Shown here piece by piece: positions 4,503-18,211 of a stretch of DNA of 64,000 nucleotides. The translations under genes were made by a program, and so were the position numbers. Numbering within the stretch: the stretch's first letter is position 1; each line of letters opens with the position of its first letter. The notes beneath the pieces are model-generated. The model was not told where the DNA came from and did no database searches. It was given only the letters and a program-made list of their open reading frames with translations. Source of the stretch: Acidovorax sp. RAC01 (GTDB taxonomy: Bacteria > Pseudomonadota > Gammaproteobacteria > Burkholderiales > Burkholderiaceae_C); assembly GCF_001714725.1 (NCBI RefSeq), contig NZ_CP016447.1, positions 2,123,001 through 2,187,000 of the forward strand, read 5' to 3'.

Positions 4503-5750
4503 TCAGCGGTAGCTGCGCGCGTCCTCGATCACGCGGCCGTCGTTGGGCAGGCTGCCCGGGGCCACCATTTCCACATCACCGCGCAGCTTGGTCACGTCGC
4601 GAATCGCTTCGCCCAGCTGGCGCGCCAGGCCTTCGGCCGTTTCCACGGTTTCCACCTTCAGCACCATCTGGTCGTTTGCCATCTCGCCGCTGACCACCAG
4701 GCGTGCACGCACCACCTGCGGAAAGCGCTTGGCAATCGCTGCCACCTGGCCGGGATGCACGAACATGCCACGCACCTTGGTGGTCTGGTCCGCGCGGCCC
4801 ATCCAGCCCTTGATACGGGTGTTGGTGCGGCCCGTGGGGCACTGGCCCGGCAGCACCGCCGACAGGTCACCGGTACCAAAGCGGATCAACGGGTAGTCGG
4901 GGTTGAGCGTGGTGACCACCAGCTCGCCCACCTCGCCCTCGGGCACCGGGTCGCCAGTGCCGGGGCGCACGATCTCGACGATCACGCTCTCGTCCAGCAC
5001 CAGGCCTTCACGGGCGCTGGTTTCATACGCAATGAGGCCCAGGTCTGCGCTGGCATAGCACTGGTAGCCCGCAATGCCACGCTCGGCAAACCAGTCGCGC
5101 AGGCTGGGCGGAAACGCCTCGCCGGAGACCAGCGCCTTGGTCACGGTGGGCAGCGCCACGCCCAGCTCGGCGGCTTTTTCGACAATGATCTTGAGGAAAC
5201 TGGGCGTTCCGATGTAACCCGCTGGCTGCAGCTCGGCCATGGCCTGCACCTGCTGCTCGGTCTGGCCCGTGCCACCGGGGAATACGGTGCAGCCCAGCGC
5301 GTGGGCGCCGGTTTCCATCATCGAGCCCGCGGGCACAAAGTGGTAGCTGAAGCTGTTGTGGATCAGCTCGCCGCTGCGAAAGCCTGCAGCGTGGATCGCC
5401 CGGGCCATGCGCCAGTAATCGCGCCGCGTGCCCTCGGGTTCGTAGATGGTGCCTGGGCTGGCAAAAACGCGCGTCATGCCCGGGCCAAACCCCAGCGCGC
5501 TGAAGCCGCCAAACACGTTGGTGGCGCGGCCCGCCTGCTGACGCTCCAGCAGCTCGTACTTGCGCGTGACGGGCAGCGCGGCCAGTGCCGCACGGCTGGT
5601 GACGGCGGCGGCGTCCACACCCGCCAGGATGCTGGCAAAAGCGGGCGACGCCTTCTGGGCATGGGCGATCTGCTGCGGCAGCGCGGCCAGCAGCGCCGCT
5701 TCGCGCTCGGCCGGGCTGCGGGTTTCCAGGGCGTCATAGAACGTGCTCAT
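4503..5750 (-). CDS. Phenylacetate-CoA ligase-like (PaaK family) adenylate-forming enzyme
   Basis: A 415-residue protein of the PaaK branch of acyl-CoA ligases, which activate aryl or acyl acids with ATP and CoA. The C-terminal half keeps the family motifs: RFGTGDLSAVLPG (about 280-295), GWMGRADQTTKVRGMFVHPGQV (about 310-335) and the closing NDGRVIEDARSYR. In contrast the glycine-rich phosphate loop, normally SSGTTGKPT in PaaK, is ASPGTIYEPEG near residue 100, so the ATP-binding loop is atypical. The ATG at 5750 has AAGGAA about ten bases upstream. It is the last gene of the minus-strand transport operon, separated from livF by a family A repeat, so it probably activates the imported acid. 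The real substrate is unknown, and a non-canonical or weak ligase is possible. Confidence 0.8.
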   Translation of the reverse strand: MSTFYDALETRSPAEREAALLAALPQQIAHAQKASPAFASILAGVDAAAVTSRAALAALPVTRKYELLERQQAGRATNVFGGFSALGFGPGMTRVFASPGTIYEPEGTRRDYWRMARAIHAAGFRSGELIHNSFSYHFVPAGSMMETGAHALGCTVFPGGTGQTEQQVQAMAELQPAGYIGTPSFLKIIVEKAAELGVALPTVTKALVSGEAFPPSLRDWFAERGIAGYQCYASADLGLIAYETSAREGLVLDESVIVEIVRPGTGDPVPEGEVGELVVTTLNPDYPLIRFGTGDLSAVLPGQCPTGRTNTRIKGWMGRADQTTKVRGMFVHPGQVAAIAKRFPQVVRARLVVSGEMANDQMVLKVETVETAEGLARQLGEAIRDVTKLRGDVEMVAPGSLPNDGRVIEDARSYR

Positions 5751-5972: not shown

Positions 5973-6785
5973 TCAGGCCAACCAGCGCTTGCGGCGCTTG
6001 TAGCTTTTCACGTCCTTGAAGCTCTTGCGCTCGCCGCCGCCCATGCCCAGGTAGAACTCCTTGACGTCCTCGTTGTTGGCAAGGTCCTTGGCGGCGCCGT
6101 CCATCACCACGCGGCCGCTTTCCATGATGTAGCCGTAGTCCGAATACTTGAGTGCCATGTTGGTGTTCTGCTCTGCCAGCAGGAAGGTGACCTTCTCCTT
6201 GGTGTTCAGGTCCTTCACGATGTTGAACACCTCCTCCACGATCTGCGGAGCCAGGCCCATCGATGGCTCATCCAGCAGCACCATGCTGGGGTTGGCCATC
6301 AGCGCGCGGCCGATGGCGCACATCTGCTGCTCGCCGCCCGAGGTATAGGCCGCCTGCGAGGTGCGCCGCGTCTTGAGGCGCGGAAAGTAGTTGTAGACCT
6401 TCTCCAGGTTGCGCGCGATTTCGGCCTTGCTGGTGCGGGTGTAGCTGCCCGTCATCAGATTTTCTTCAATCGTCAGGTGGGCAAAGCAGTGCCGCCCTTC
6501 CATCACCTGCACCACGCCGCGCTGCACCAGATCGGCCGGCGTGAGGTTCTCGATGCGTTCACCACGCAACTCAATGCTGCCCTTGGTGACCTCACCGCGT
6601 TCGCCCTGCAGCAGGTTCGAGATGGCGCGCAACGTGGTCGTCTTGCCCGCCCCGTTGCCCCCCAGGATGGCCACGATGGAGCCCTCGCGCACCTGCAGCG
6701 AGACGCCCTTGAGCACCAGAATCACGTGGTTGTAGATGACCTCGATGCCGTTGACGTTGAGAACGATATTGCTGTTGGAGTCCAT
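5973..6785 (-). CDS. livF: Branched-chain amino acid-type ABC transporter ATP-binding protein (LivF)
   Basis: A 270-residue cytoplasmic ATPase of the HAAT (hydrophobic amino acid/amide) ABC family. The Walker A motif is [13 protein letters not shown] (about 39-51), the signature is YTSGGEQQMCAIGRAL, and Walker B is MVLLDEPSMGLAP. It pairs with LivG at 10447 to energise LivH-LivM. The ATG at 6785 has AGGAAGG at a good distance; an in-frame TTG seven codons upstream is less likely. It is slightly longer at the C terminus than E. coli LivF because of a Lys/Arg-rich tail (SYKRRKRW). Its place in an operon with two CoA ligases suggests the transporter imports an aromatic or other organic acid rather than leucine; this is inference. 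Confidence 0.9.
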   Translation of the reverse strand: MDSNSNIVLNVNGIEVIYNHVILVLKGVSLQVREGSIVAILGGNGAGKTTTLRAISNLLQGERGEVTKGSIELRGERIENLTPADLVQRGVVQVMEGRHCFAHLTIEENLMTGSYTRTSKAEIARNLEKVYNYFPRLKTRRTSQAAYTSGGEQQMCAIGRALMANPSMVLLDEPSMGLAPQIVEEVFNIVKDLNTKEKVTFLLAEQNTNMALKYSDYGYIMESGRVVMDGAAKDLANNEDVKEFYLGMGGGERKSFKDVKSYKRRKRWLA

Positions 6786-7014: not shown

Positions 7015-8343
7015 TCAAGACTGGCAGTCGGCGGCGTCGCGGCGCGTCATCTTCTTGTCGGCCAGGTACTTCTCTGCACCGGCCTTCACCATGGGCTTGA
7101 GGATCTGCTCGTCAGCCTGGTACCAGTCCGACGAGAAGTTCCACTTGCTGCCATCCCAGGTGTGCACGCGCGACCAGGTCGAACCCATGTGGTCGGCGCA
7201 GCTGGTGGACAGCGGACGCATCACGCCGTTGAAACCCAGGGCGTCAAGCTTCTTCTGGTCCAGGGCCAGGTTTTCCATGCCCCAGCGCACCTGCTCGCCC
7301 GTCATGACCTTGCCCTTGCCAAAACGCTCCTGGGCGCGGCGCACCGACTCGACGGCCAGCATCTGGATGATCACGCCGCGCGTGTACAGCACCGAACCCA
7401 CTTCGTCCTTGGGGCCGGTGCCCTGGCCTTTTTCGTGCACGTGCTTCAGGATGTCCTGGATCACCTTGTTCTGCTGGCCGTAGCCGTTCAGTGCCAAGGC
7501 GTTGTAGCCCTTGGCGCCTTCGCCCACGTCACGCACATCGGGTTCAGCACCCGCCCACCACACACCGTACATCTTGTCGCGGGGGTAGCCCGTGGCTTGG
7601 GCTTCCTTTAGTGCGGTGGAGTTCATCACGCCCCAGCCCCACAGCAACACATAGTCAGGGCGGCTCTGGCGCACCTGTAGCCAGGTGGCTTTCTGTTCCA
7701 CGCCAGGAGCGGTCACTGGCAGCATCTGCAGTTCAAAGCCATGCATCTTTGCGCGCTCTTGCAGTACCGGGATGGGCTCCTTGCCGAACGGGCTGTCGTG
7801 GTAGACCAGTGCGATCTTCTTGCCCTTGAGCTTGTCGAGCCCGCCGTTGACCTTGCCCAGATGCTGGATCAGGATGTCGGCGCCCGTCCAGTAGCTGCCC
7901 ATGAAGGGGAAGTTCCATTTGAAGGCCTGGCCATCCTGCGCCACGGACAGGCCGTAGCCCAGCGTCATCAACGGGATCTTGTCCACGGGCGCCTTCTCGG
8001 TCAGCGCAAAGGTGATGCCGGTGGCTTGTGGGTCAAACATCGAGACGCCCGGGCGGCTCTTGAGGCGTTCGTAGCACTCCACGCCGCGGTCAGTGGCGTA
8101 GCCCGTTTCACATTCCTCAAAGGTCAGCTTCACACCATTGATGCCGCCGTCGCGGGCATTGATCAACTTGATGTAGTCCTGCTTGCCGTTGGCCCATGGC
8201 ACACCGTTGGGTGCGTAGGGGCCCGTGCGGTAGGACAGCAGCGGGAAGAACTGCTCCTTGGCTTGCGCGAAGGCGCTCGTCGCGATGGACGAGGCACCGG
8301 CAGCAACCACCGCAGCGGCGATCACGATTTTCGAAAGCTTCAT
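7015..8343 (-). CDS. HAAT-family ABC transporter periplasmic substrate-binding protein
   Basis: A 442-residue periplasmic binding protein (Peripla_BP_6 type) with a signal peptide of about 26 residues ending SAFAQA. The mature part begins KEQFFPLLSYRTGPYAPNG and contains GVKLTFEECETGYATDRGVE, typical of the larger (about 440-residue) HAAT receptors that travel with a LivGFHM set plus acyl-CoA ligases. The ATG at 8343 has AAAGGAG eight bases upstream. It is the receptor of the transporter encoded by livM, livH, livG and livF around it. Candidate ligands are aromatic acids, amides or branched-chain compounds; the sequence alone does not decide. A family A repeat follows its stop codon and may separate its mRNA level from that of livF. 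Confidence 0.9.
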   Translation of the reverse strand: MKLSKIVIAAAVVAAGASSIATSAFAQAKEQFFPLLSYRTGPYAPNGVPWANGKQDYIKLINARDGGINGVKLTFEECETGYATDRGVECYERLKSRPGVSMFDPQATGITFALTEKAPVDKIPLMTLGYGLSVAQDGQAFKWNFPFMGSYWTGADILIQHLGKVNGGLDKLKGKKIALVYHDSPFGKEPIPVLQERAKMHGFELQMLPVTAPGVEQKATWLQVRQSRPDYVLLWGWGVMNSTALKEAQATGYPRDKMYGVWWAGAEPDVRDVGEGAKGYNALALNGYGQQNKVIQDILKHVHEKGQGTGPKDEVGSVLYTRGVIIQMLAVESVRRAQERFGKGKVMTGEQVRWGMENLALDQKKLDALGFNGVMRPLSTSCADHMGSTWSRVHTWDGSKWNFSSDWYQADEQILKPMVKAGAEKYLADKKMTRRDAADCQS

Positions 8344-8396: not shown

Positions 8397-9473
8397 TCAG
8401 TGCGGGAAGGGCCACAGACGCAGTTTCTGCTTGGCGGTGGACCACAGCTTGGCCAGACCATGCGGCTCGACGATGAGGAACCACACGATGAGCGCGCCGA
8501 AGATCATCAGCTCGGCATGCGAGATACCGGCAGTGGAGATCTCGATACCGAAAATGCCCAGGAAGGCCGGCAGGAACTGGTTGAGGGCGATGGGCAGCAC
8601 GACGATGAAAGCCGCACCGAAAAACGCGCCCATGATGGAGCCCAGCCCGCCAATGATTACCATGAATAGCAGGCGGAAAGAGACCTCTACCGAGAACGCG
8701 GCGGGCTCCCAGGCGCCCAGGTGCACAAAGGCCCACAGCGCGCCGGCCATGCCGATGATGAAAGAGCTGACGGCAAACGCGCTGAGCTTGGCGTACATGG
8801 GACGGATGCCGATCACGGCCGCAGCCACATCCATGTCGCGGATGGCCATCCACTCGCGGCCGATGGCGCCGCGCACCAGGTTCTTTGCCAGCAGGGCCAT
8901 GACCACTAGGATTGCCAGGCAGAACAGGTACTTGCTGGTGGCCGACTCGATTGGCATCCCGAACACCTGCAGGTTGGTCACCGACACCGAACCGGAGTCG
9001 GAGTTGTTGGTGAACCACTTGATGCGCAGAAACATCCAGTCCGAGAAGAACTGCGCCGCCAGCGTGGCCACGGCCAGGTACAGGCCCTTCACGCGCAGGC
9101 TGGGCAGGCCGAACAGGATGCCGAAGAACGTGGCACACAGCCCGCCCAGGATGAGCGCCGGGATCAGCGGCATGCCCGGAAAACGCACGAAGAAGTTGTA
9201 GGCGCCATAGGCCCCCACGGCCATGAAGGCACCCGAGCCCAGCGAGATCTGGCCGCAGTAGCCCACCAGGATGTTCACGCCCAGGGCCGCCAGGCCCATG
9301 ATGACGAAGGGGATCAGGATGGCGCGGAAGATGTAGTCGCTGGCCAGCATGGGCACGGCGATGAAGGCCACCGCCAAGATGAGGCCGATGGCAATGCGGT
9401 CCTGCGCGATCGGGAAGATCTGCTGGTCGGCGCGGTAGCTGGTCTTGAACTGGCCGTTTTCGCGGTAGAGCAT
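8397..9473 (-). CDS. livM: HAAT-family ABC transporter permease LivM
   Basis: A 358-residue inner-membrane permease with about nine to ten hydrophobic segments. The N terminus (MLYRENGQFKTSYRADQQI) is cytoplasmic and is followed by the LivM signature GVNILVGYCGQISLGSGAFMAVGAYGAYN and, near residue 245-300, the EAA-loop-like region SFRLLFMVIIGGLGSIMGAFFGAAF. It pairs with LivH. The ATG at 9473 has CAGGAGA nine bases upstream. The gap to livH is only 28 bp and that to the receptor gene 53 bp, so all are in one operon. The N-terminal extension before the first membrane span is longer than in short LivM proteins, but that is usual for this subgroup. Confidence 0.9.
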   Translation of the reverse strand: MLYRENGQFKTSYRADQQIFPIAQDRIAIGLILAVAFIAVPMLASDYIFRAILIPFVIMGLAALGVNILVGYCGQISLGSGAFMAVGAYGAYNFFVRFPGMPLIPALILGGLCATFFGILFGLPSLRVKGLYLAVATLAAQFFSDWMFLRIKWFTNNSDSGSVSVTNLQVFGMPIESATSKYLFCLAILVVMALLAKNLVRGAIGREWMAIRDMDVAAAVIGIRPMYAKLSAFAVSSFIIGMAGALWAFVHLGAWEPAAFSVEVSFRLLFMVIIGGLGSIMGAFFGAAFIVVLPIALNQFLPAFLGIFGIEISTAGISHAELMIFGALIVWFLIVEPHGLAKLWSTAKQKLRLWPFPH

Positions 9474-9501: not shown

Positions 9502-10431
9502 TTACACGCGGTCAATGATTTTTTCTCCGAAGAGCCCTTGAGGCCTGAAGAGAAGAAACACCAGCGCCAGCACATACGCAAACCAGATCTCGATGCCACC
9601 GCCCACGAACGGGCCCAGATACACCTCAGAAAGCTTCTCGCCCACGCCGATGATCAGGCCGCCGATGATGGCGCCGGGCACCGATGTGAGGCCGCCCAGG
9701 ATCACCACCGGCAGCGCACGCAGGGCCACGGTGGTCAGCGAGAACTGCACGCCCAGCTTGCTGCCCCAGATCATCCCGGCCACCAAGGCCACCACGCCCG
9801 CCACGCACCACACGATCACCCAGATGCGGTTGAGCGGAATGCCGATGGACTGGGCCGCCTGGTGGTCATCCGCCACGGCGCGCAGGGCGCGGCCGGTGGA
9901 GGTTTTCTGGAAGAACACCGACAGCAGGGCCACCAGCGCAGCGGCAATGGCGGCGGCGATCACGTCTTCCTTGTTGATCAGGATGCCGCCCTGGAATACG
10001 GTGTCGAAGGCGAAGATCGGCTCCTTGGGCATGCCGATGTCGATCTTGTAGATGTTGCTGCCGAAGATGGTCTGGCCTAGGCCTTCGAGGAAATACGTGA
10101 TGCCCAGCGTCGCCATCAGCAGCGTGGCGCCTTCCTGGTTGACGAGGTGGCGCAGTACCAGGCGCTCGATCAGCCAGGCCGCCACGAACATGATGGCGCC
10201 CGCGATCACGAAGGCTGCCAGGTTGGCCACGATGGGGTTGCTGATGCCGGTCCACTGCGGGATCCACTCGGCAAAGCGGGCCATGGCCAGCGCGGCAAAG
10301 AGCACCATCGCGCCCTGCGCAAAGTTGAAGACGCCCGACGCCTTGTAGATCAGCACGAAGCCAAGTGCCACCAGCGAATACAGCATGCCGGCCATGAGGC
10401 CGCCGATCAGTGTTTCAAGAAAGAATGCCAT
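9502..10431 (-). CDS. livH: HAAT-family ABC transporter permease LivH
   Basis: A 309-residue inner-membrane permease. It opens with MAFFLETLIGGLMAGMLYSLVALGFVLIYKASGVFNFAQG, the usual LivH start, and contains VVILGGLTSVPGAIIGGLIIG near residue 240, the loop that contacts the ATPases. About eight membrane spans can be drawn. CAGGAG lies eight bases upstream of the ATG at 10431. Only 15 bp separate it from livG, so translation is probably coupled. It forms the translocation channel with LivM. Confidence 0.9.
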   Translation of the reverse strand: MAFFLETLIGGLMAGMLYSLVALGFVLIYKASGVFNFAQGAMVLFAALAMARFAEWIPQWTGISNPIVANLAAFVIAGAIMFVAAWLIERLVLRHLVNQEGATLLMATLGITYFLEGLGQTIFGSNIYKIDIGMPKEPIFAFDTVFQGGILINKEDVIAAAIAAALVALLSVFFQKTSTGRALRAVADDHQAAQSIGIPLNRIWVIVWCVAGVVALVAGMIWGSKLGVQFSLTTVALRALPVVILGGLTSVPGAIIGGLIIGVGEKLSEVYLGPFVGGGIEIWFAYVLALVFLLFRPQGLFGEKIIDRV

Positions 10432-10446: not shown

Positions 10447-11232
10447 TCAGTGCGATGTGCCCAGATAGGCACTGATCACGTCTTCGTTGCTGCGCACTTC
10501 ATCGGGGCTGCCGTCGCCGATCTTCTTGCCGTAGTCCAGCACCACCACGCGGTCGCTGATGTCCATCACCACGCCCATGTCGTGCTCGATGAGCACGATC
10601 GTGGTGCCGAACTCGTCGTTGACATCCAGGATGAAGCGGCACATGTCCTGCTTTTCTTCCACGTTCATGCCGGCCATGGGTTCATCGAGCAGCAGCACCT
10701 GCGGCTCCATCGCGAGAGCCCGGCCCAGGTCCACGCGTTTTTGCAGGCCGTAGGGCAGCTGGCCCACCGGCGTCTTGCGAAAGGCCTGGATTTCCAGGAA
10801 GTCGATGATGTGCTCGACGTATTCGCGGTGGCGGATTTCCTCGCGCTCGGCCGGGCCGATGCGCAGCGCCTGCAGCAGCAGGTTGCTTTTGATCTTGAGG
10901 TTGCGGCCGGTCATGATGTTGTCGATCACGCTCATGCCCTTGAACAGTGCCAGGTTCTGGAACGTGCGCGCCACCCCCATCTCGGCCACCTGGCGCGAGT
11001 TCATGTGCGAGAACGTCTTGCCCCGGAAGGTGATGGAGCCCTCTTGCGGCGTGTACACGCCGTTGATGCAGTTGAGCATGGAGCTCTTGCCCGCGCCGTT
11101 GGGGCCGATGATGGCGCGGATCTCGTGCTCCTTCACATTGAAAGAGATGTCGGTCAGCGCCTTCACGCCGCCGAACCTGAGGCTGATGTTGTTGACGTCA
11201 AGGATGACGTCGCCGATCTTCTTGGTGCTCAT
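10447..11232 (-). CDS. livG: HAAT-family ABC transporter ATP-binding protein LivG
   Basis: A 261-residue cytoplasmic ATPase. Walker A is [14 protein letters not shown] (about 42-55), the signature region is LPYGLQKRVDLGRALAMEP as in LivG proteins, Walker B is VLLLDEPMAGMN, and the switch His is in TIVLIEHDM. The insertion between Walker A and the signature that marks LivG against LivF is present. It starts 22 bp after the stop of the acyl-CoA ligase gene, and the same spacing pattern continues down the operon. It couples ATP hydrolysis to transport with LivF. Confidence 0.92.
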   Translation of the reverse strand: MSTKKIGDVILDVNNISLRFGGVKALTDISFNVKEHEIRAIIGPNGAGKSSMLNCINGVYTPQEGSITFRGKTFSHMNSRQVAEMGVARTFQNLALFKGMSVIDNIMTGRNLKIKSNLLLQALRIGPAEREEIRHREYVEHIIDFLEIQAFRKTPVGQLPYGLQKRVDLGRALAMEPQVLLLDEPMAGMNVEEKQDMCRFILDVNDEFGTTIVLIEHDMGVVMDISDRVVVLDYGKKIGDGSPDEVRSNEDVISAYLGTSH

Positions 11233-11254: not shown

Positions 11255-13201
11255 TCAGGCAGCGTTCTTCACGGGTGCAAAGGTCTTTGCGTCCGACAGC
11301 TTGAGCGTGGCGCTCACGCTGCCCGAGCGGCCGTCCTCGAACTTCACCACGGTCTCGATGTACTGCTCGGTGCGGCCTGCGTACAGCGCATCGACCAGCA
11401 CACCGTACTTGTCGGCAATGAAGCCGCGGCGGACCTTGTTGGTGCGGGTCAGCTCGCCGTCGTCGGCGTCCAGTTCCTTGTGCAGCACCAGGAAGCGGCT
11501 GACCTGGCTGCCTGCCAGCATGGCGTCGGTGGCAAGGTCGGCGTTGACCTTTTCGATGCACTCGCGGATCAGCTCGTACACCTCGGGCTTTTGCGCCAGG
11601 TCGGTGTAGCCGGCGTAAGGCAGGTTGCGGCGCTCGGCCCAGTTGCCCACGGCGTCGAAGTCGATGTTGATCATCACGCACACCTTCTCGCGCTTGTCGC
11701 CCAGGGCCACCACTTCCTTGATGTGCGGGAAGAACTTGAGCTTGTTCTCCACATACTTGGGCGCAAACATGGCGCCGTCGTTGGCGCCGCCCATGATGCG
11801 GCCCACGTCTTTCACGCGGTCGATGATCTTGAGGTGGCCGTGCGCGTCCAGAAAGCCCGCATCGCTGGTGTGGTACCAGCCGTCGGCCGTCAGCACTTCG
11901 GCGGTGGCGGCGGGGTTCTTGTAGTACTCCTTGAGCAGTCCGGCCGACTTGACCAGGATCTCGCCGTTGTCGGCCACCTTGATCTCCACGCCGCGGATCG
12001 GCACGCCCACCGTGTCGGCGCGCGCCTGGTTGTCGGGCTGCAGGCAGACGAACACGGCGGTCTCGGTGGAGCCGTACAGCTGCTTCAAGTTGATGCCGAT
12101 GGAGCGGTAGAAGGTGAACAGGTCAGGGCCAATGGCCTCGCCCGCCGTGTAGGCCACGCGCACGCGGCTGAACCCCAGGTTGTTGCGCAGCGGGCCGTAC
12201 ACCAGCAGGTTGCCGAGGGCGTACTTGACCTTGTCGAGCGTGCCCACGGCTTCGCCGTCCATCAGCGCCGGGCCCACTCGCTTGGCCACGCGCATGCAGG
12301 CCTCGAACATCTTGCGCTTCAAGGTGCCCGCGTCTTCCATGCGGATCATCACGCTGGTGAGCAGGCCTTCAAAAATGCGGGGCGGCGCGAAGTAGTAGGT
12401 GGGGCCCACTTCTTTCAGGTCGATGGTCACGGTGCTGGCCGACTCGGGGCAGTTCACCACATAGCCGCAGGCCAGCCACTGCGCGTAGCTGAAGATGTTC
12501 TGCCCGATCCAGGCGGGTGGCAGGTAGGCCAGCACTTCCTCGCTGCTGGTGAGCTTGTCGAACTCGGCACCGGCGGAAGCGCGGTCGAGCAGGGTGCTGT
12601 GCGTGTGCACCACGCCCTTTGGGTTGCCGGTGGTGCCTGAGGTGAAGAACATCGCGGCCACATCGGCGGGCTGCGCCTTGGCCACCTCGGCCTTGAACCA
12701 GCCGGGGTTCTTGGCTGCAAAGGCCTTGCCCGCCTCGATCAGCGAATCGAGCGAGGCCAGGCCTTCTTCTTCGTACTTGCGCAGGCCGCGCGGGTCGTCA
12801 TAGAAGATGTGGCTGATCTGCGGGCACTGCTCGCGCACCTCCAGCATCTTGTCGACCTGCTCCTGGTCTTCCACCAGGCAAAAGCGCACCTCGGCGTTGT
12901 TCAGCGGGAAAACGCACTCGGCCGCCACCGCATCCTGGTACAGCGGCACGGGGATGGCGCCCAGCGACTGCGCGGCCAGCATGGTGGCGTACAGGCGGGG
13001 GCGGTTGGCGCCCACCACCACCATGTGTTCGTGGCGCTGCAGCCCGGCCTGGTGCAGCCCGGCCGCCACCTGCTCGACCAGACGCGCCAGGTCGGCCCAG
13101 GTGTGCGTCTGCCAGATGCCATATTCTTTCTCGCGCAGGGCGGGCGCTTCGGGGCGCTCGGCGGCGTGCTTGAGCAGCAATTGCGGGAACGTGGTCAACA
13201 T
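11255..13201 (-). CDS. Long-chain-type acyl-CoA ligase (AMP-binding enzyme)
   Basis: A 648-residue adenylate-forming ligase, first gene of the minus-strand transport operon. It has the phosphate loop MFFTSGTTGNPKGVVHTH (about 190-205), the A5 motif YGSTETAVF, and the hinge motif WYHTSDAGFLDAHGHLKIIDRVKDV. Overall length and the TLPPA-like segment place it with FadD/long-chain ligases, which make acyl-CoA from acid, ATP and CoA. Members linked to LivFGHM sets in betaproteobacteria are usually annotated simply as AMP-dependent synthetases. With the PaaK-like enzyme at the far end, the operon would import and thioesterify an organic acid. A Crp-like palindrome lies 103 bp upstream of its start. 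Confidence 0.88.
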   Translation of the reverse strand: MLTTFPQLLLKHAAERPEAPALREKEYGIWQTHTWADLARLVEQVAAGLHQAGLQRHEHMVVVGANRPRLYATMLAAQSLGAIPVPLYQDAVAAECVFPLNNAEVRFCLVEDQEQVDKMLEVREQCPQISHIFYDDPRGLRKYEEEGLASLDSLIEAGKAFAAKNPGWFKAEVAKAQPADVAAMFFTSGTTGNPKGVVHTHSTLLDRASAGAEFDKLTSSEEVLAYLPPAWIGQNIFSYAQWLACGYVVNCPESASTVTIDLKEVGPTYYFAPPRIFEGLLTSVMIRMEDAGTLKRKMFEACMRVAKRVGPALMDGEAVGTLDKVKYALGNLLVYGPLRNNLGFSRVRVAYTAGEAIGPDLFTFYRSIGINLKQLYGSTETAVFVCLQPDNQARADTVGVPIRGVEIKVADNGEILVKSAGLLKEYYKNPAATAEVLTADGWYHTSDAGFLDAHGHLKIIDRVKDVGRIMGGANDGAMFAPKYVENKLKFFPHIKEVVALGDKREKVCVMINIDFDAVGNWAERRNLPYAGYTDLAQKPEVYELIRECIEKVNADLATDAMLAGSQVSRFLVLHKELDADDGELTRTNKVRRGFIADKYGVLVDALYAGRTEQYIETVVKFEDGRSGSVSATLKLSDAKTFAPVKNAA

Positions 13202-13303
13202 TGCAGCTTCCTAAAAGTGAGAGCGTGTCAGCCCGGTGACTGCCGGGAGCGCAAGCCTGTGATTGCGCTGTGGGGGAATGCTAGAACTCACTTTGACGCC
13301 ATC

Positions 13304-13322
13304 TTGTCTTGCCGACGACAAT
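13304..13322. promoter_or_regulatory. Crp/Fnr-type palindrome upstream of the ligase-liv operon
   Basis: TTGTCTTGCCGACGACAAT has half-sites TTGTC and GACAA separated by eight bases. It is the same as the site at 17413-17431 except for one spacer base. On the minus strand a -10-like TAGCAT (13283-13278) would place the palindrome centre about 41.5 bases upstream of transcription start, the usual class II activator position. Confidence 0.65.
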
Positions 13323-13438
13323 TTAGGGGAAACTCCTGATCGGGTTAAACCCTTCCCCGGGTTTTGGAGCGCCTGCGTTGTGGTGGGCGGCGGCCGATCT
13401 GTGGCCAGGTTGCAGCGGGGCGGTATCCTTCGGCGGAT

Positions 13439-15133
13439 ATGTACGCACCGTATTTCGGCCTACGGCATCCGCCGTTTTCCATCGCCCCCGATCCGCGCTA
13501 CCTGTTCATGAGCGAGCGGCACCGCGAGGCGCTGGCGCACCTGCTGTACGGACTGGATGCGGGCGGCGGTTTCGTGCTGCTCACTGGCGAGGTCGGCGCA
13601 GGCAAGACCACCGTGTGCCGCTGCTTCCTGGAGCAGATCCCCAGCCACTGCAACGTGGCCTACATCTTCAACCCCAAGCTCACGGTGCACGAGCTGCTGC
13701 GCTCGGTGTGCGATGAATTCGGCGTGCCGCACAAGCCCGGCGTGTCGGGCGTCGAGACCGTCAAGGACTACATCGACCCGCTCAACGCATCGCTGCTGGC
13801 CGCGCACGGCGCGGGGCGCAACACCGTGCTCATCATTGACGAGGCGCAGAACCTCTCGGCCGATGTGCTGGAACAGCTGCGCCTGCTGACCAACCTGGAA
13901 ACCAGCGAGCGCAAGCTGCTGCAGATCATCCTGATCGGCCAGCCCGAGCTGCGCGCCATGGTGGCCAGCCCGGCGCTGGAGCAGCTCGCCCAGCGCGTGA
14001 TTGCACGCTTTCACCTCGATGCGCTGAGCCTCGAAGAATCACAGCAGTACATTGCGCACCGCATGGCCGTGGCCGGGCTGCAGGGGCCGCTGCCGTTGAG
14101 CGCGCGCGCCATGCGCCGGGTGCATGCGCTGTCGCGTGGCATACCGCGGCGCATCAACCTGCTGTGCGACCGCGCGCTGCTCGGCGCCTATGCGGCCGGG
14201 GTGCGGGGCGTCACGGTGGCCATGGTCAACCGCGCTGCGCGCGAGGTGTTTGATCGGCCCGCTGCTGCAGCGGCCGCATCGGCCGCGCGCACGCCGCGCT
14301 GGGCCGTGGCGGGCCTGGGCGCGGTGGCCGGGGCTGCAGCCCTGGCCGTGGCTGGCTGGGCTGCGGGCGTGTGGGGGCCAGGAGCCCAGCGCGGCGCAGA
14401 TGCGCCCGTGCAGCCTGCCAGCGCGGCATTGGCGCCCGCGGCTGCGGCGCCTGCCGCGGCAGCCAGCGCGGCTGCAAGCCCCGCGAGCGCGGCCACTGCG
14501 CCCAAGCCTGCCGATGCACTGGCGCAGTTTCTGCGCGCGCAAGACACCGATGACACGGCCGCGTGGCTGGCCCTGGCCGCAGCCTGGGGCGCCAGCGTGC
14601 CTGACCGGGCCGACCCCTGCACCAGCCTGCCGCGCGCCGGTGTGCGCTGCTACCGCAATCCCCGCGCCGGGCTCAACCTGGTGCGCCAGCTGGACCGGCC
14701 TGTGCTGCTCACGCTGTACCCTGCCGCTGCGCCCGACACCCCGGTCACGGCTGTGCTGCGCCATCTCGACGGCAACCTGGCCACGCTCGAAGGCGCCGGG
14801 CAGCGCGTGCGCGTGCCGGTGGAAGACCTGGCCGACGTGTGGCGCGGCGACCTGGCCACGCTGTGGCGTGCGCCCGATGCCATGCCCGACAAGGGCGAGA
14901 TCACCGACACCGCGGCGGGCACGGCCTGGCTCGATGCCCAGCTGGCGAGCCGTGCGGCCGGCGGCGCAGGGCCCGAGCGCCGCGCAGCCACGCCGGCCCA
15001 GCGCCAGGCCAGCATCCACCGGTTTCAGCTGGCCCAGGGCGTGGTGCCCGACGGCCGCCCCGGACCCCTGACCCTCATGCTGCTCAACCGCGCCACCGGC
15101 GTGAACGAGCCGCGCCTGCGCACCGGAGGCTAG
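13439..15133 (+). CDS. gspA: General secretion pathway protein A (ExeA/GspA-type AAA ATPase with peptidoglycan-binding domain)
   Basis: A 564-residue inner-membrane ATPase. It starts MYAPYFGLRHPPFSIAPDPRYLF as ExeA proteins do, with Walker A TGEVGAGKTT (about 48-58), Walker B VLIIDEAQN, and sensor IPRRINLLCDRALLGAY. A Pro/Ala-rich linker and one membrane span (about 290-312) follow. The C-terminal domain (about 505-550: ASIHRFQLAQGVVPDGRPGPLTL) is a PG_binding_1 peptidoglycan-binding repeat. ExeA with ExeB remodels peptidoglycan so that the type II secretin can assemble. It is six bases upstream of gspB; no other gsp gene is in the window. The ATG at 13439 is chosen because the family begins exactly there. 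Confidence 0.88.
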   Translation: MYAPYFGLRHPPFSIAPDPRYLFMSERHREALAHLLYGLDAGGGFVLLTGEVGAGKTTVCRCFLEQIPSHCNVAYIFNPKLTVHELLRSVCDEFGVPHKPGVSGVETVKDYIDPLNASLLAAHGAGRNTVLIIDEAQNLSADVLEQLRLLTNLETSERKLLQIILIGQPELRAMVASPALEQLAQRVIARFHLDALSLEESQQYIAHRMAVAGLQGPLPLSARAMRRVHALSRGIPRRINLLCDRALLGAYAAGVRGVTVAMVNRAAREVFDRPAAAAAASAARTPRWAVAGLGAVAGAAALAVAGWAAGVWGPGAQRGADAPVQPASAALAPAAAAPAAAASAAASPASAATAPKPADALAQFLRAQDTDDTAAWLALAAAWGASVPDRADPCTSLPRAGVRCYRNPRAGLNLVRQLDRPVLLTLYPAAAPDTPVTAVLRHLDGNLATLEGAGQRVRVPVEDLADVWRGDLATLWRAPDAMPDKGEITDTAAGTAWLDAQLASRAAGGAGPERRAATPAQRQASIHRFQLAQGVVPDGRPGPLTLMLLNRATGVNEPRLRTGG

Positions 15134-15139
15134 TTTTTT

Positions 15140-16015
15140 ATGTCGTACATCCTTGATGCCCTGCGGCGCGCCGAAGCAGAGCGCGGCCGTGGCGGCGTGC
15201 CCGGCCTGCACAGCCAGACGGTGCCGGTGCATGGAGCTGCGCCCGCGGCTGCAAGGCCGCTGGCGGCACACCCGGCGGTGCTGCTGGGCGGTGCGCTGGC
15301 GCTGGCCGCCGTGGCCGCAGGCGGCACGTGGTGGGCCCTGCAGCGCCCCGGCGGCGCCCCGGCGGTGCAGGTGGCTGCAGTTCCCGCAGGGCCTGCGGCA
15401 CCCGTCACCCCGCCCGTCACCCCGCCCGCGCAGCCGCTGCCTGCCGTGGCCGTGCCTGCGCCCTCACTGGCGCCTGCAGCGGCGGTGCCGCCGCCACCCG
15501 GGCCGACAGCGCCCGCTGCGGCCTCGGCAAGCCCATCGTCTGTCGCCCCCGCCCCCGCCGCTGCCTTGCCTGAGCGGCGTGCGCCTGAAAAGCGGCCTGC
15601 CGAAAAGCCCCCGGGACGGCCGGCGGCGGAACCCGCAGCACAACGGCCTGCGCCCGCGCCAGCAGGCGAAGCGCCGCGCGCGCGGCCGTCGGTGGCTCCG
15701 GTCGCAGGCGCTGCGGTGGCATCGACCGGCCCGTCTGCGGCCGCGCAAGGCCAGGGCGCTGCCACCGCGCCACCGGCCGCCGCGCCGGTGTTTGCGCAGG
15801 CCGATCTGCCCGAGGCGATCCGCAGCCAGCTGCCGGTGCTCAAGATTTCAGGCGCCACGTATTCCAACAACCCGGCCCACCGGATGGCCATCGTCAACGG
15901 GCAGGTTCTGCTCGAAGGCGATCAGGCCGGACCGGGCCTGGTGCTGGAGCGGGTGGAGCAAAGCCGCACCGTGTGGTCGTTCCGCGGCTACCGGTACGCG
16001 GTGGGTTCCCAGTAG
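15140..16015 (+). CDS. gspB: General secretion pathway protein B (GspB/ExeB-like)
   Basis: A 291-residue protein with the conserved start MSYILDALRRAEAERGRG, one membrane span near residue 48-66, a long Pro/Ala-rich periplasmic stretch (about 75-205) and a C-terminal GspB domain (LPEAIRSQLPVLKISGATYS through VWSFRGYRYAVG). GspB works with GspA to bring the type II secretin to the cell wall. It follows gspA by six bases, so both are translated from one message. The Pro/Ala-rich region varies freely in this family. No gspC-N genes are near, as is common for gspAB in betaproteobacteria. Confidence 0.85.
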   Translation: MSYILDALRRAEAERGRGGVPGLHSQTVPVHGAAPAAARPLAAHPAVLLGGALALAAVAAGGTWWALQRPGGAPAVQVAAVPAGPAAPVTPPVTPPAQPLPAVAVPAPSLAPAAAVPPPPGPTAPAAASASPSSVAPAPAAALPERRAPEKRPAEKPPGRPAAEPAAQRPAPAPAGEAPRARPSVAPVAGAAVASTGPSAAAQGQGAATAPPAAAPVFAQADLPEAIRSQLPVLKISGATYSNNPAHRMAIVNGQVLLEGDQAGPGLVLERVEQSRTVWSFRGYRYAVGSQ

Positions 16016-16066
16016 GGAGCAGGCCCATGAAGCCGCCACGGCAGCGGGGGGGAATTTTTTGAGTAA

Positions 16067-16125
16067 AAAATGCCGCTGTGGCAAGTCGGTCAATGTTTTA
16101 TTGCTATAAATAATGTAGCAAAAGA
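16067..16125 (+). repeat. Family B dispersed repeat, copy 3 (degenerate)
   Basis: Contains AAAAAATGCCGCTGTGGC and ATTGCTATAAATAATGTAGCAA, the last part being the usual GCTAT...TAGCA hairpin of family B. It lies between the convergent gspB and the binding-protein gene at 16136. Confidence 0.5.
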
Positions 16126-16135
16126 TTGTGCTGCA

Positions 16136-17332
16136 TCACCGCACGAACCGCCCGTCGCGCCCCACCAGCGTCAGCTCCACAAAACGCGATGCATTGCGCT
16201 CCGGTGTGCTGGCGTTGATCTCGAACCCGCCCAGGTCCCATTTCTTGAGGTTCCACGTTGCATCGATGAACGCGGCGCGCGTGGGGTTGCGGCCGGCGCG
16301 CTGCAGGGCTTCGGCAAACACGCGGGCGTTGATGTAGCCCTCCAGTGCCAGGTGCGACGCATCGGCGGTGGCCCCCGATGCCTTCCACGCCGCCTGGAAA
16401 TCGCGCACCACGGGCATCACCACATGGGTGGGCAGCGGCACCACCTGCGAGATGGCCATGCCCGTGGCGTCTGGGCCCAGAGCCTTCACCGTGGCGGCCG
16501 TGCCCATCACCGACAGGGCATACAGCGTGACGCCGCGCTGCTGCGCGCGAAAGGCCTTCACGAACTCCAGCGTGGGCTTGCCGGCCAGGCCGATCACGAT
16601 GGCTTCCAGGTTGGCGCCCGCAAGCCGGGTGGCCACCGCGCCCGCGTCGGATGCGTTGCTTTCCACGGTGACGGAGGTGGCTTCGGGCAGCTTCAGGCGC
16701 TCGATGGACTGGCGCGCAGCGCCGTACACCTCTTTGCCGAACGCATTGTTCTGGTACACCACGCCGATGCGGCGGATGCCGATGGTGGCCAGGTGCTGCA
16801 CCAGCTTTTCGGCCTCGTCGGCGTAGCTGGCGCGGATGTTGAACACATTGCGCGCCGTCTTGACGCGGCTGACCTGCGCACCCGTAAACGGCGCAAAGAA
16901 CGGCACACCGCTGTCGATCACCTTGGGCAGCATGGCCTCGATCATCGGTGTGCCCATGCAGTTGAACAGGGCAAACGTGTCCCGGTCGGCCAGGAAGGCG
17001 TCCACGTTGGCCACTGCCTTGGCCACGTCGTACGCATCGTCCTGCGTCACCAGCTCGATGGTACGGCCGTTCACGCCGCCCCGGGCGTTGATGGCGGCAA
17101 ACGCAGCCTTGGCACCCTGTTGCATGGCCGAACCCAGCTCGCCCAGCGGGCCCGTGAGTGCGGTGGACTGCCCGATCCGGAGGGCGCCTTCCTGGGCCCA
17201 TGCGGTCCGGCCGGCCGCGGCCAGAACGGGCAGACCGGCCATGGCAGCCATCAGCCGGCGCCGCGCCAGCGGGCCGCCGCCAGCGGTGGATTGGCTGAGC
17301 GGCTGGGGTGAAGGGGCGTGGTGTGCATGCAT
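16136..17332 (-). CDS. ABC transporter substrate-binding protein (leucine/amide type, Peripla_BP_6)
   Basis: A 398-residue periplasmic receptor. After a 24-residue lead it has ARRRLMAAMAGLPVLAAAG, a signal sequence with consecutive arginines that could be Tat-type, ending near AWAQ. The mature part, LRIGQSTALTGPLGELGSAM and GRTIELVTQDDAYD, is the standard HAAT receptor fold. It is a different subtype from the receptor at 7015. No permease or ATPase gene is adjacent, so it may use the LivFGHM system 3 kb away or another transporter. Its start is 166 bp from the divergent Crp/Fnr-type regulator gene, and a Crp-like palindrome lies between them. GAGGAC precedes the ATG at 17332. Confidence 0.88.
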   Translation of the reverse strand: MHAHHAPSPQPLSQSTAGGGPLARRRLMAAMAGLPVLAAAGRTAWAQEGALRIGQSTALTGPLGELGSAMQQGAKAAFAAINARGGVNGRTIELVTQDDAYDVAKAVANVDAFLADRDTFALFNCMGTPMIEAMLPKVIDSGVPFFAPFTGAQVSRVKTARNVFNIRASYADEAEKLVQHLATIGIRRIGVVYQNNAFGKEVYGAARQSIERLKLPEATSVTVESNASDAGAVATRLAGANLEAIVIGLAGKPTLEFVKAFRAQQRGVTLYALSVMGTAATVKALGPDATGMAISQVVPLPTHVVMPVVRDFQAAWKASGATADASHLALEGYINARVFAEALQRAGRNPTRAAFIDATWNLKKWDLGGFEINASTPERNASRFVELTLVGRDGRFVR

Positions 17333-17412
17333 GGGAGTTGTCCTCGTAGGCGGGGTGACCGTGGTGGCGGCCCGCAAAACGCAGGATCATCGGGGTGCGA
17401 TTGACAATGTTT

Positions 17413-17431
17413 TGTCTTGCTGACGACAATC
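17413..17431. promoter_or_regulatory. Crp/Fnr-type palindrome between the receptor gene and the regulator gene
   Basis: TTGTCTTGCTGACGACAAT, one base different from the site at 13304-13322. A -10-like GATGAT on the minus strand (17391-17386) would put the centre of the palindrome about 42-43 bases upstream of the receptor transcript start. It also lies 67 bp before the regulator start codon, so autoregulation is possible. Confidence 0.65.
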
Positions 17432-17497: not shown

Positions 17498-18211
17498 ATG
17501 AGCCAGGACCTTTCATTGCACCAGCGGCGCAGGCCGCCCACCGAGGATGAGCTGCAGGGCATCCCGTGGCTGGGCTTGCTGCAGCCCTCCGAACGCGAGC
17601 GCGCCATGGCCGCGCTGCTGGTGGGCGACGCCCGGGCCGGCGACTATGTGTGCCGCGTGGGCCGGCCGGTGACGTACTGGTTTGGCGTGGTGGAGGGCCT
17701 GCTCAAGATGAGCAGCGACAACGCCCAGGGCCAGACCATGACCTTCACCGGCGTGCCACCCGGCGGCTGGTTTGGCGAGGGCACCGCCCTCAAGCGCGAA
17801 CCCTACCGCTACAACATCCAGGCGCTGCGCAAAAGCACTGTGGCGGGCCTGCCCATCGACACCTTTCACTGGCTGCTTGATCACTCCATTGGCTTCAACC
17901 GCTTCGTGATGAACCAGCTCAACGAACGGCTGGGCCAGTTCATCGCCGCGCGCGAGATTGACCGCATGAACAATCCCGACGTGCGCGTGGCGCGCAGTCT
18001 CGCGTCACTGTTCAACCCCGTGCTGTACCCGGGCGTGGGCGAGGTACTGCGCATCACGCAGCAGGAGCTGGCCTACCTGGTGGGGCTGTCGCGCCAGCGC
18101 GTGAACGAGGCGCTTTCGGCGCTGGAGATGCAGGGCACCATCCGCGTGGAATACGGCGGCCTGCGCGTGCTGGACCTGGCGTCGCTGCGGTCGAGCGTGA
18201 TCCCTTCCTGA
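17498..18211 (+). CDS. Crp/Fnr-family transcriptional regulator
   Basis: A 237-residue regulator with an N-terminal cyclic-nucleotide-binding-type jelly roll (about 25-150; PPGGWFGEGTALKREPYRYNIQAL is the PBC-like loop), a dimerisation helix, and a C-terminal Crp winged helix (LRITQQELAYLVGLSRQRVNEALSALE, about 185-212). The single Cys near residue 51 and lack of a Cys cluster exclude an FNR-type iron-sulfur sensor. Related proteins in betaproteobacteria sit next to organic-acid or amide transport genes. Two near-identical palindromes, here and before the ligase-liv operon, are likely targets. The effector is unknown. Confidence 0.85.
   Translation: MSQDLSLHQRRRPPTEDELQGIPWLGLLQPSERERAMAALLVGDARAGDYVCRVGRPVTYWFGVVEGLLKMSSDNAQGQTMTFTGVPPGGWFGEGTALKREPYRYNIQALRKSTVAGLPIDTFHWLLDHSIGFNRFVMNQLNERLGQFIAAREIDRMNNPDVRVARSLASLFNPVLYPGVGEVLRITQQELAYLVGLSRQRVNEALSALEMQGTIRVEYGGLRVLDLASLRSSVIPS

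Follow-up and report, generated by a model that had tools for sequence, protein, structure and literature searches.

Two Palindromes beside liv-type Transport Genes and a Crp/Fnr-family Regulator

The window analyzed here is a stretch of 64,000 nucleotides from the genome of Acidovorax sp. RAC01 (contig NZ_CP016447.1, positions 2,123,001 to 2,187,000). It contains two near-identical palindromes which, on sequence grounds, are very probably the operators of an adjacent Crp/Fnr-family regulator that would act as a class II activator of an acyl-CoA ligase-liv operon and of an orphan liv-type receptor gene. Crp/Fnr-type control joining two liv-type units had been proposed in an earlier sequence-only reading of the window. 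The proposal was borne out in part, in that, across relatives, the operator goes with the regulator, the ligase-liv operon, and the second receptor.

Operator 1 (13304-13321, extending to 13322 as a 19-mer) has the sequence TTGTCTTGCCGACGACAA, with TTGTCGT-N4-ACGACAA as the extended consensus, and lies upstream of the ligase-liv operon. Operator 2 (17412-17429, extending to 17430 as a 19-mer) has the sequence TTGTCTTGCTGACGACAA and lies between the second receptor gene and the regulator gene. Both are strand-symmetric. As the sequence-only reading had stated, the two 19-bp copies, spacer included, are one base apart in the window sequence, and open reading frames (ORFs) and family scans agree with its placing of the first before the ligase-liv operon and of the second between a liv-type receptor gene and a Crp/Fnr gene. 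The coordinates it gave were correct for the first site (13304-13322) but not for the second, for which 17413-17431 has to be moved one base to the left, to 17412-17430.

The two operators are the only perfect matches to TTGTC-N8-GACAA in the window, where allowing up to two mismatches reveals no enrichment (7 matches versus 14.1 expected). The exact motif occurs four times in the whole genome (4,574,859 bases) and once in a reversed control. When one mismatch is allowed the genome yields 36 matches versus 34 in the reversed control, and hence these matches are mostly chance; a wider regulon drawn from them was rejected. The genome scan that had been suggested with the sequence-only reading thus gave a divided result: two of the four exact matches fall at the ligase-liv/receptor unit, but a wider regulon is unsupported. 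Of the two other exact sites, one lies before a FadB-like gene near a paralogous regulator and one at 1171073 (locus L075, ~9574), within a stretch of ~5.6 kb in which a simple codon-usage gene caller placed no gene. A spacer of nine bases showed no enrichment, either in the window (17 found versus 14.4 expected) or in the genome (5 exact matches versus 3 in the control), indicating that N8 is the right spacing. When the palindrome was combined with a TAnnnT hexamer 20 nucleotides downstream, the ligase site was the one exact match genome-wide, and three matches, the receptor site included, were found with one mismatch. With the palindrome plus -10 and up to two mismatches, genome-wide numbers were at control level (8 and 10 versus 8 and 15). 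Because the looser matches are not enriched, this genome alone cannot define the regulon, and comparison with other genomes was needed.

Conservation of the Palindrome among Relatives

Regulator orthologs with 88-92% identity were found in 21 of 23 same-genus genomes. The core of the palindrome, scored out of 10, was exact at 18 of the 22 same-genus regulator loci (own locus counted); the remaining four scored 9/10 (L068 and L070) or 8/10 (L066 and L069). Of 15 same-genus genomes searched, 11 carry the operator 1 string without change, genome G007 carries a one-base variant, and G002, G003, and G012 have no exact match at this place. In G003, for which no regulator ortholog was found, the ligase, the -10 element, a 9/10 palindrome, and the receptor are present on a stretch that stops just past the receptor, apparently at a contig end; the regulator may therefore merely be absent from the assembly. 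G002, also with no regulator ortholog, has a ligase of 59% identity together with livG and livH, but the palindrome is absent. It is absent too from the other ligase-liv unit of the RAC01 genome (L296), the ligase of which is 36% identical.

A wider set was made up of the best 80 related loci found with an alignment of five regulators, two of which came from other families. By name these loci are mostly Comamonadaceae (mainly Acidovorax, Polaromonas, Ramlibacter, Simplicispira, and Rhodoferax), and some of them are the same contigs as genomes already compared. On the ligase side, where a start could be placed in 75 loci, the core scored 10/10 in 49, 9/10 in 24, and 8/10 in 2. The corresponding regulator-side scores for the 80 loci were 10/10 in 45, 9/10 in 28, 8/10 in 3, and 7/10 or less in 4. 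A core of at least 9/10 was present upstream of 73/75 ligase genes and 72/79 regulator genes versus 1 of 412 control regions. The controls came from upstream of 11 other genes of these loci, and since many of these regions lie within operons they are partly coding DNA; gspA and the gene for substrate-binding protein 2 (SBP2) were excluded, as the regions before them overlap the palindromes. Markov resampling of the regulator upstream regions produced a core of at least 9/10 in 7 of 1600 cases.

Two other families contributed 33 loci with regulators 47-58% identical to that of the window in local alignments. In 32 of these the regulator and ligase genes point away from each other, and a palindrome of at least 8/10 is likewise present in 32. 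The exception, L270, has a regulator copy with no ligase neighbor, and the palindrome is absent.

A single palindrome lies between divergent regulator and ligase genes in 32 of the 80 loci (75 resolvable). At the other loci the second receptor gene, gspAB, or both intervene, and there is then usually one palindrome for each target start. The regulator-side palindrome has been lost where gspB adjoins the regulator with no receptor gene (L143, L178, and G022/L069), and all that is left of it in G005 and G022 is its GACAAT half, the -10 of a plus-strand TTGGC(A/G)-N18-GACAAT. The loss of the operator at loci lacking an adjacent target suggests that it is retained chiefly for the targets, with self-control secondary. 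Judged by this comparison of sequences, the palindrome is an operator tied to these genes at a fixed -10 spacing.

Chance likeness, or a functionless remnant of a duplicated stretch, would account for the near identity of the two copies in the window and for the lack of enrichment of two-mismatch matches around them. Conservation across genera and families, the fixed -10 spacing described below, and the dissimilar flanks make such an origin extremely improbable. By eye, the flanks of operators 1 and 2 are dissimilar beyond ~20 bases, and in relatives the sequence of the receptor-side spacer is usually less similar to that of the ligase-side spacer than it is in the window. A recent duplication is therefore unlikely, and the one-base difference, spacer included, appears to be partly peculiar to this genome.

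Promoter Architecture

The minus strand had been noted in the sequence-only reading to carry -10-like hexamers that would put each palindrome about 42 bases upstream of a transcription start, as for class II activators, and this spacing proved to be conserved in relatives. The -10 element of the ligase operon, TAGCAT (13278-13283, minus strand), predicts a start near 13271 and an operator center at about -41.5. A TAnnnT hexamer lies exactly 20 nucleotides downstream, in the ligase direction, at all 73 sites of the 80-locus set with a core of at least 9/10. Among non-redundant ligase sites it is found at this distance in 61/61, compared with an average of 0.49 at other offsets, the highest being 21/61 at offset 2. 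The fixed spacing places the operator center at about -41.5, as at class II promoters, with the -35 place inside the palindrome. For the 32 palindromes of the other families TAnnnT is 20 nucleotides away in 25 and 21 nucleotides away in 7. The layout of a class II promoter, with its center at about -41.5, fixed -10, and overlapped -35, is thus present at the sequence level.

The palindromes might also be operators at which the regulator represses the ligase operon and the receptor gene until a ligand releases it. One palindrome can serve both modes, and at operator 2 it covers the -10 of a plus-strand promoter-like sequence, a repressor-like place. However, the constant 20 nucleotides to the ligase -10 (73/73), with the -35 place inside the palindrome, is as expected for activation, and 20 or 21 nucleotides are kept at 32/32 usable sites in the other families. 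We consider repression of these targets unlikely.

Upstream of the second receptor gene the -10-like hexamer is GATGAT (17386-17391, minus strand), which has the same 20-nucleotide spacing as at the ligase, would put the receptor start near 17379, and is not TAnnnT. In the receptor direction, 41 related sites have GATGAT (18), TAGCAT (14), CATGAT (4), or other hexamers (5), so that one of the three named hexamers occurs at the 20-nucleotide spacing in 36/41. Toward the regulator there is a promoter-like TTGACA-N18-GACAAT (17401-17430, plus strand), the -10 of which is the right half of operator 2. Among separate regulator-side sites GACAAT is found in 37/37 and a TTG-type -35 in 28/37.

Two further elements accompany the ligase promoter. 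CGTCAAA (13292-13298, minus strand; TTTGACG on the plus strand) lies between operator 1 and the -10 and is invariant in 73/73 ligase sites of the 80-locus set, even those far from the regulator; no copy was observed at the palindromes in the two other families. Upstream of operator 1, reading toward the ligase, are two GGG-N4-CC(C)-like elements (13327-13336 and 13342-13351), at about -60 and -75 relative to the predicted start, and in the set GG..CC at -34 occurs in 66/73 ligase sites and GG-N5-CCC at -19 in 60/73. As a genome-wide motif with up to one mismatch, AGGGTANTCCCT gave 11 matches versus 15 in the control, and no second-factor regulon can be named. CGTCAAA and the GGG-N4-CC(C) elements might reflect a second factor or an antisense promoter that is conserved.

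These features raise the question of whether the site is mainly a divergent sigma-70 promoter pair with a site for another factor, the palindrome arising from overlapping promoter elements. The invariance of CGTCAAA would fit, as would the reverse promoter-like TTGACG-N18-GACAAT at 42/42 separate ligase sites and the retention of just the GACAAT half beside the regulator in G005 and G022. However, the left half TTGTC is kept though it is a promoter element in neither direction, and the palindrome persists in other families where CGTCAAA is missing, which renders a promoter pair a highly unlikely explanation.

The Regulator Protein

The regulator gene (17498-18211, plus strand) encodes 237 amino acids. 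The protein belongs to the Crp/Fnr superfamily, with scores of 57.2 bits for cNMP_binding (PF00027, cut-off 27.5) and 48.7 bits for HTH_Crp_2 (PF13545, cut-off 27). It is not CRP as judged by the CRP equivalog model NF008732 (41 bits, cut-off 266). No protein in the RAC01 genome exceeds the CRP cut-off, and among 14 control genomes one does so, presumably that of E. coli. The absence of iron-sulfur cysteines claimed in the sequence-only reading was confirmed: the sole cysteine is Cys-52, and the cysteine stretch of E. coli FNR has no counterpart in the alignment.

An alignment of 34 regulators, among them three paralogs, shows no variation at Ser-198, Arg-199, Gln-200, and Asn-203 in the recognition helix. 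Aligned with E. coli CRP, Arg-180 is kept and Glu-181, Gly-184, and Arg-185 are replaced by Gln, Asn, and Glu, respectively. In CRP, Glu-181 and Arg-185 contact the base pair at which TGTGA has G and TGTCG has C. Among the cAMP-contact residues of CRP, Ser-83, Thr-127, and Ser-128 are changed, and the position of Arg-82 depends on gap placement. An AlphaFold2 model of the regulator, built from an 18-sequence alignment in which the other sequences are 83-91% identical to the window protein, had a mean predicted local distance difference test score of 46 and a predicted TM-score of 0.37, values too low for judging the ligand pocket.

Paralogous Regulators

Two other regulators of the RAC01 genome, paralog 2 (at 3563805) and paralog 3 (at 3296081), have nearly the same SRQxxN recognition helix and operator arms as the local regulator. 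Pointing away from the paralog 2 gene are a 3-(methylthio)propionyl-CoA ligase-like gene (1038.9 bits, cut-off 822) and a liv operon. Paralog 2 was followed in 20 same-genus loci, consisting of 19 of 20 stretches (L237 is of another type) and the own locus L073. The palindrome beside this regulator has at most one mismatch in the TTGTC/GACAA arms in 18/20 loci and two mismatches in the other two, and a single AGGGTAATCCCT-like element lies upstream of it in 18/18 aligned sites. At 18 loci there is another palindrome, in most cases TTGTCCCGCCCGGGACAA, before a FadB-like gene; in L073 (9773-19900, own genome ~3563.8-3573.9 kb) the palindrome before the FadB-like gene is a perfect 8+2+8. Paralog 3 lies beside an aldehyde dehydrogenase gene and has a one-mismatch palindrome in 8/8 loci, where an unnamed divergent gene is also found beside the palindrome (L074, 9076-10453; L251-L257). 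The centers of the paralog 2 and 3 sites and their downstream promoter-element spacing differ from those of the ligase-liv unit.

The stretches scanned for another Crp-like group (13 loci, L238-L250) contained no palindrome within one mismatch. The neighbors in these loci are other ligase and 3-hydroxyacyl-CoA dehydrogenase-like genes, and an imperfect CAGTCATCGCGATGACAT-type sequence was present in 5/5 loci scanned upstream.

Cross-binding by the paralogs is possible. Operators 1 and 2 could accordingly be bound by paralog 2 or 3, or by several regulators jointly, as the shared helix and arms (at most one base off at 18/20 paralog 2 and 8/8 paralog 3 loci) would allow. On the other hand, one site is common to the divergent local regulator and the ligase at 32 of 75 resolvable loci and at 32/33 loci of the other families, and the sites of the paralogs have different centers and different downstream spacing; we regard binding by a paralog as rather unlikely. 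A broader proposal, which we put forward tentatively as a possibility, is that the Crp/Fnr paralogs sharing the SRQxxN helix and using TTGTCG-type operators control separate CoA-ligase/uptake or aldehyde dehydrogenase units, one to each paralog, and sense CoA-activated substrates, the ligase promoter being a composite with a second factor at the GGG-N4-CCC pair and CGTCAAA. If true, there would be parallel acid-uptake switches within one cell.

A Model for Control by the Local Regulator

In the mechanism that we favor, activation by the local regulator, a regulator dimer would use its S-R-Q-x-x-N helix to read TTGTCGT-N4-ACGACAA, a site with the geometry of a CRP site and TGTCG replacing TGTGA. 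On operator 1 the dimer would cover the poor -35 of the ligase promoter, near -41.5, and bring about class II activation of the ligase-livGHM-receptor-livF-PaaK-like operon. Binding to operator 2 would likewise activate the single-gene second receptor. With both operators bound, a single regulator would bring about a joint increase in transport, CoA activation, and a spare receptor. On the plus strand, the promoter of the regulator gene shares its -10 and part of its spacer with operator 2, and binding there would therefore probably damp transcription of the regulator. The regulator would be gated by a candidate effector, which may be the acid that is transported or the CoA ester of that acid; a CoA thioester made by the ligases had been suggested in the sequence-only reading. 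We infer operator binding, activation, self-repression, and effector gating from the arrangement and conservation of the sites.

Several points weigh against this mechanism. Activation in preference to repression is argued from spacing and nothing else. The paralogs have nearly the same helix and operator arms, so that the protein bound at operators 1 and 2 may be one of them. The strict TAnnnT is found in only 16/41 receptor-direction sites and is absent from that of the window itself. The reverse promoter-like TTGACG-N18-GACAAT is retained at ligase sites now separated from the regulator, and part of the conservation may thus serve something other than the regulator dimer. Finally, the regulator-side palindrome scores 8/10 or less in 7/80 loci and in the same-genus genome G005. 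Three of the seven loci, L129, L131, and L182, run counter to the rule that the operator is kept for target genes, having a receptor yet only 7/10 or 8/10 on the regulator side.

Genes of the Locus

The ligase-liv operon is on the minus strand. Its first gene (11255-13201) encodes an AMP-forming acyl-CoA ligase (AMP-binding, 227.5 bits), for which the best NCBIfam model is FadD11 (300 bits, cut-off 950). A livG-type ATPase (10447-11232), a livH-type permease (9502-10431), and a livM-type permease (8397-9473) follow; these were recognized as ORFs in conserved order and are named by sequence type. Next are the first liv-type substrate-binding protein (7015-8337; Peripla_BP_6, 157.3 bits) and a livF-type ATPase (5973-6785), which scores 202.2 bits with the LivF model, under the equivalog cut-off of 441. 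The last gene (4503-5747) encodes a PaaK-like CoA ligase (AMP-binding, 41.8 bits; PaaK models, 143 and 124.6 bits, under cut-off). The second liv-type substrate-binding protein gene (16136-17332, minus strand; Peripla_BP_6, 192.7 bits), the start codon of which is uncertain, is apparently transcribed alone.

XrtA/ExeA-type ATPase and GspB-like genes (within 13439-16015, plus strand; TIGR03015, 276.9 bits with a cut-off of 324.5, and GspB, 57 bits with a cut-off of 100) stand between the ligase and regulator genes in the window, and the same holds for most of the Acidovorax loci inspected. The reverse promoter-like sequence at operator 1 may also be the promoter of these two genes.

Comparison with Known Systems

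In these bacteria liv-type transporters are frequently joined to acyl-CoA ligases, and their cargo is mostly inferred. A defined operator and regulator offer a handle on that cargo, since the ligand of the regulator would point to the transported acid. The motif also lets the same control be recognized in three families of one order. The operator stays with its target genes through rearrangement, with gspAB and a second receptor gene lying between regulator and ligase, and in three loci with no adjoining target the copy belonging to the regulator gene is gone. The control proposed here is of an ordinary bacterial kind but is well conserved.

Related substrates, namely branched-chain compounds and fatty acids, are controlled in related bacteria by LiuR, LiuQ, FadR, PsrA, and FadP, of which LiuR belongs to the MerR family and LiuQ and FadP to the TetR family, according to the main text of PMC5343134. 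The words Crp and Fnr are absent from that main text, and neither occurs in the available part of PMC6449761. A lead to fitness data for Acidovorax GW101-3H11 was dropped, the available part of PMC9007349 containing neither branched-chain, livF, nor Crp. Among the titles and abstract openings listed in literature searches we met no description of this regulon, although the spelling "Crp/Fnr" was probably unreachable and absence from print is therefore weakly tested.

The window regulator shares the Crp/Fnr superfamily with FNR and ANR, which give class II-type activation from TTGAT-N4-ATCAA sites; the four cysteines of FNR bind a 4Fe-4S cluster. Half-site and spacing differ between the two, and the iron-sulfur cysteine stretch is absent here. 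CooA is a heme CO sensor that controls the coo genes in CO oxidizers, and its sites probably resemble those of the window in having a TGTC-type half-site with CRP spacing.

E. coli CRP sites have the geometry TGTN-N8-NACA, and at class II promoters their center lies near -41.5 and overlaps the -35. The window regulator differs from CRP in its half-site, TGTCG rather than TGTGA, in the changes to its recognition helix, and in scoring under the cut-off of the CRP model. Two sites were found for it, in contrast to the global regulon of CRP. It nevertheless resembles CRP at class II promoters in protein family, in operator geometry, and in an operator center at about -41.5 over the -35.

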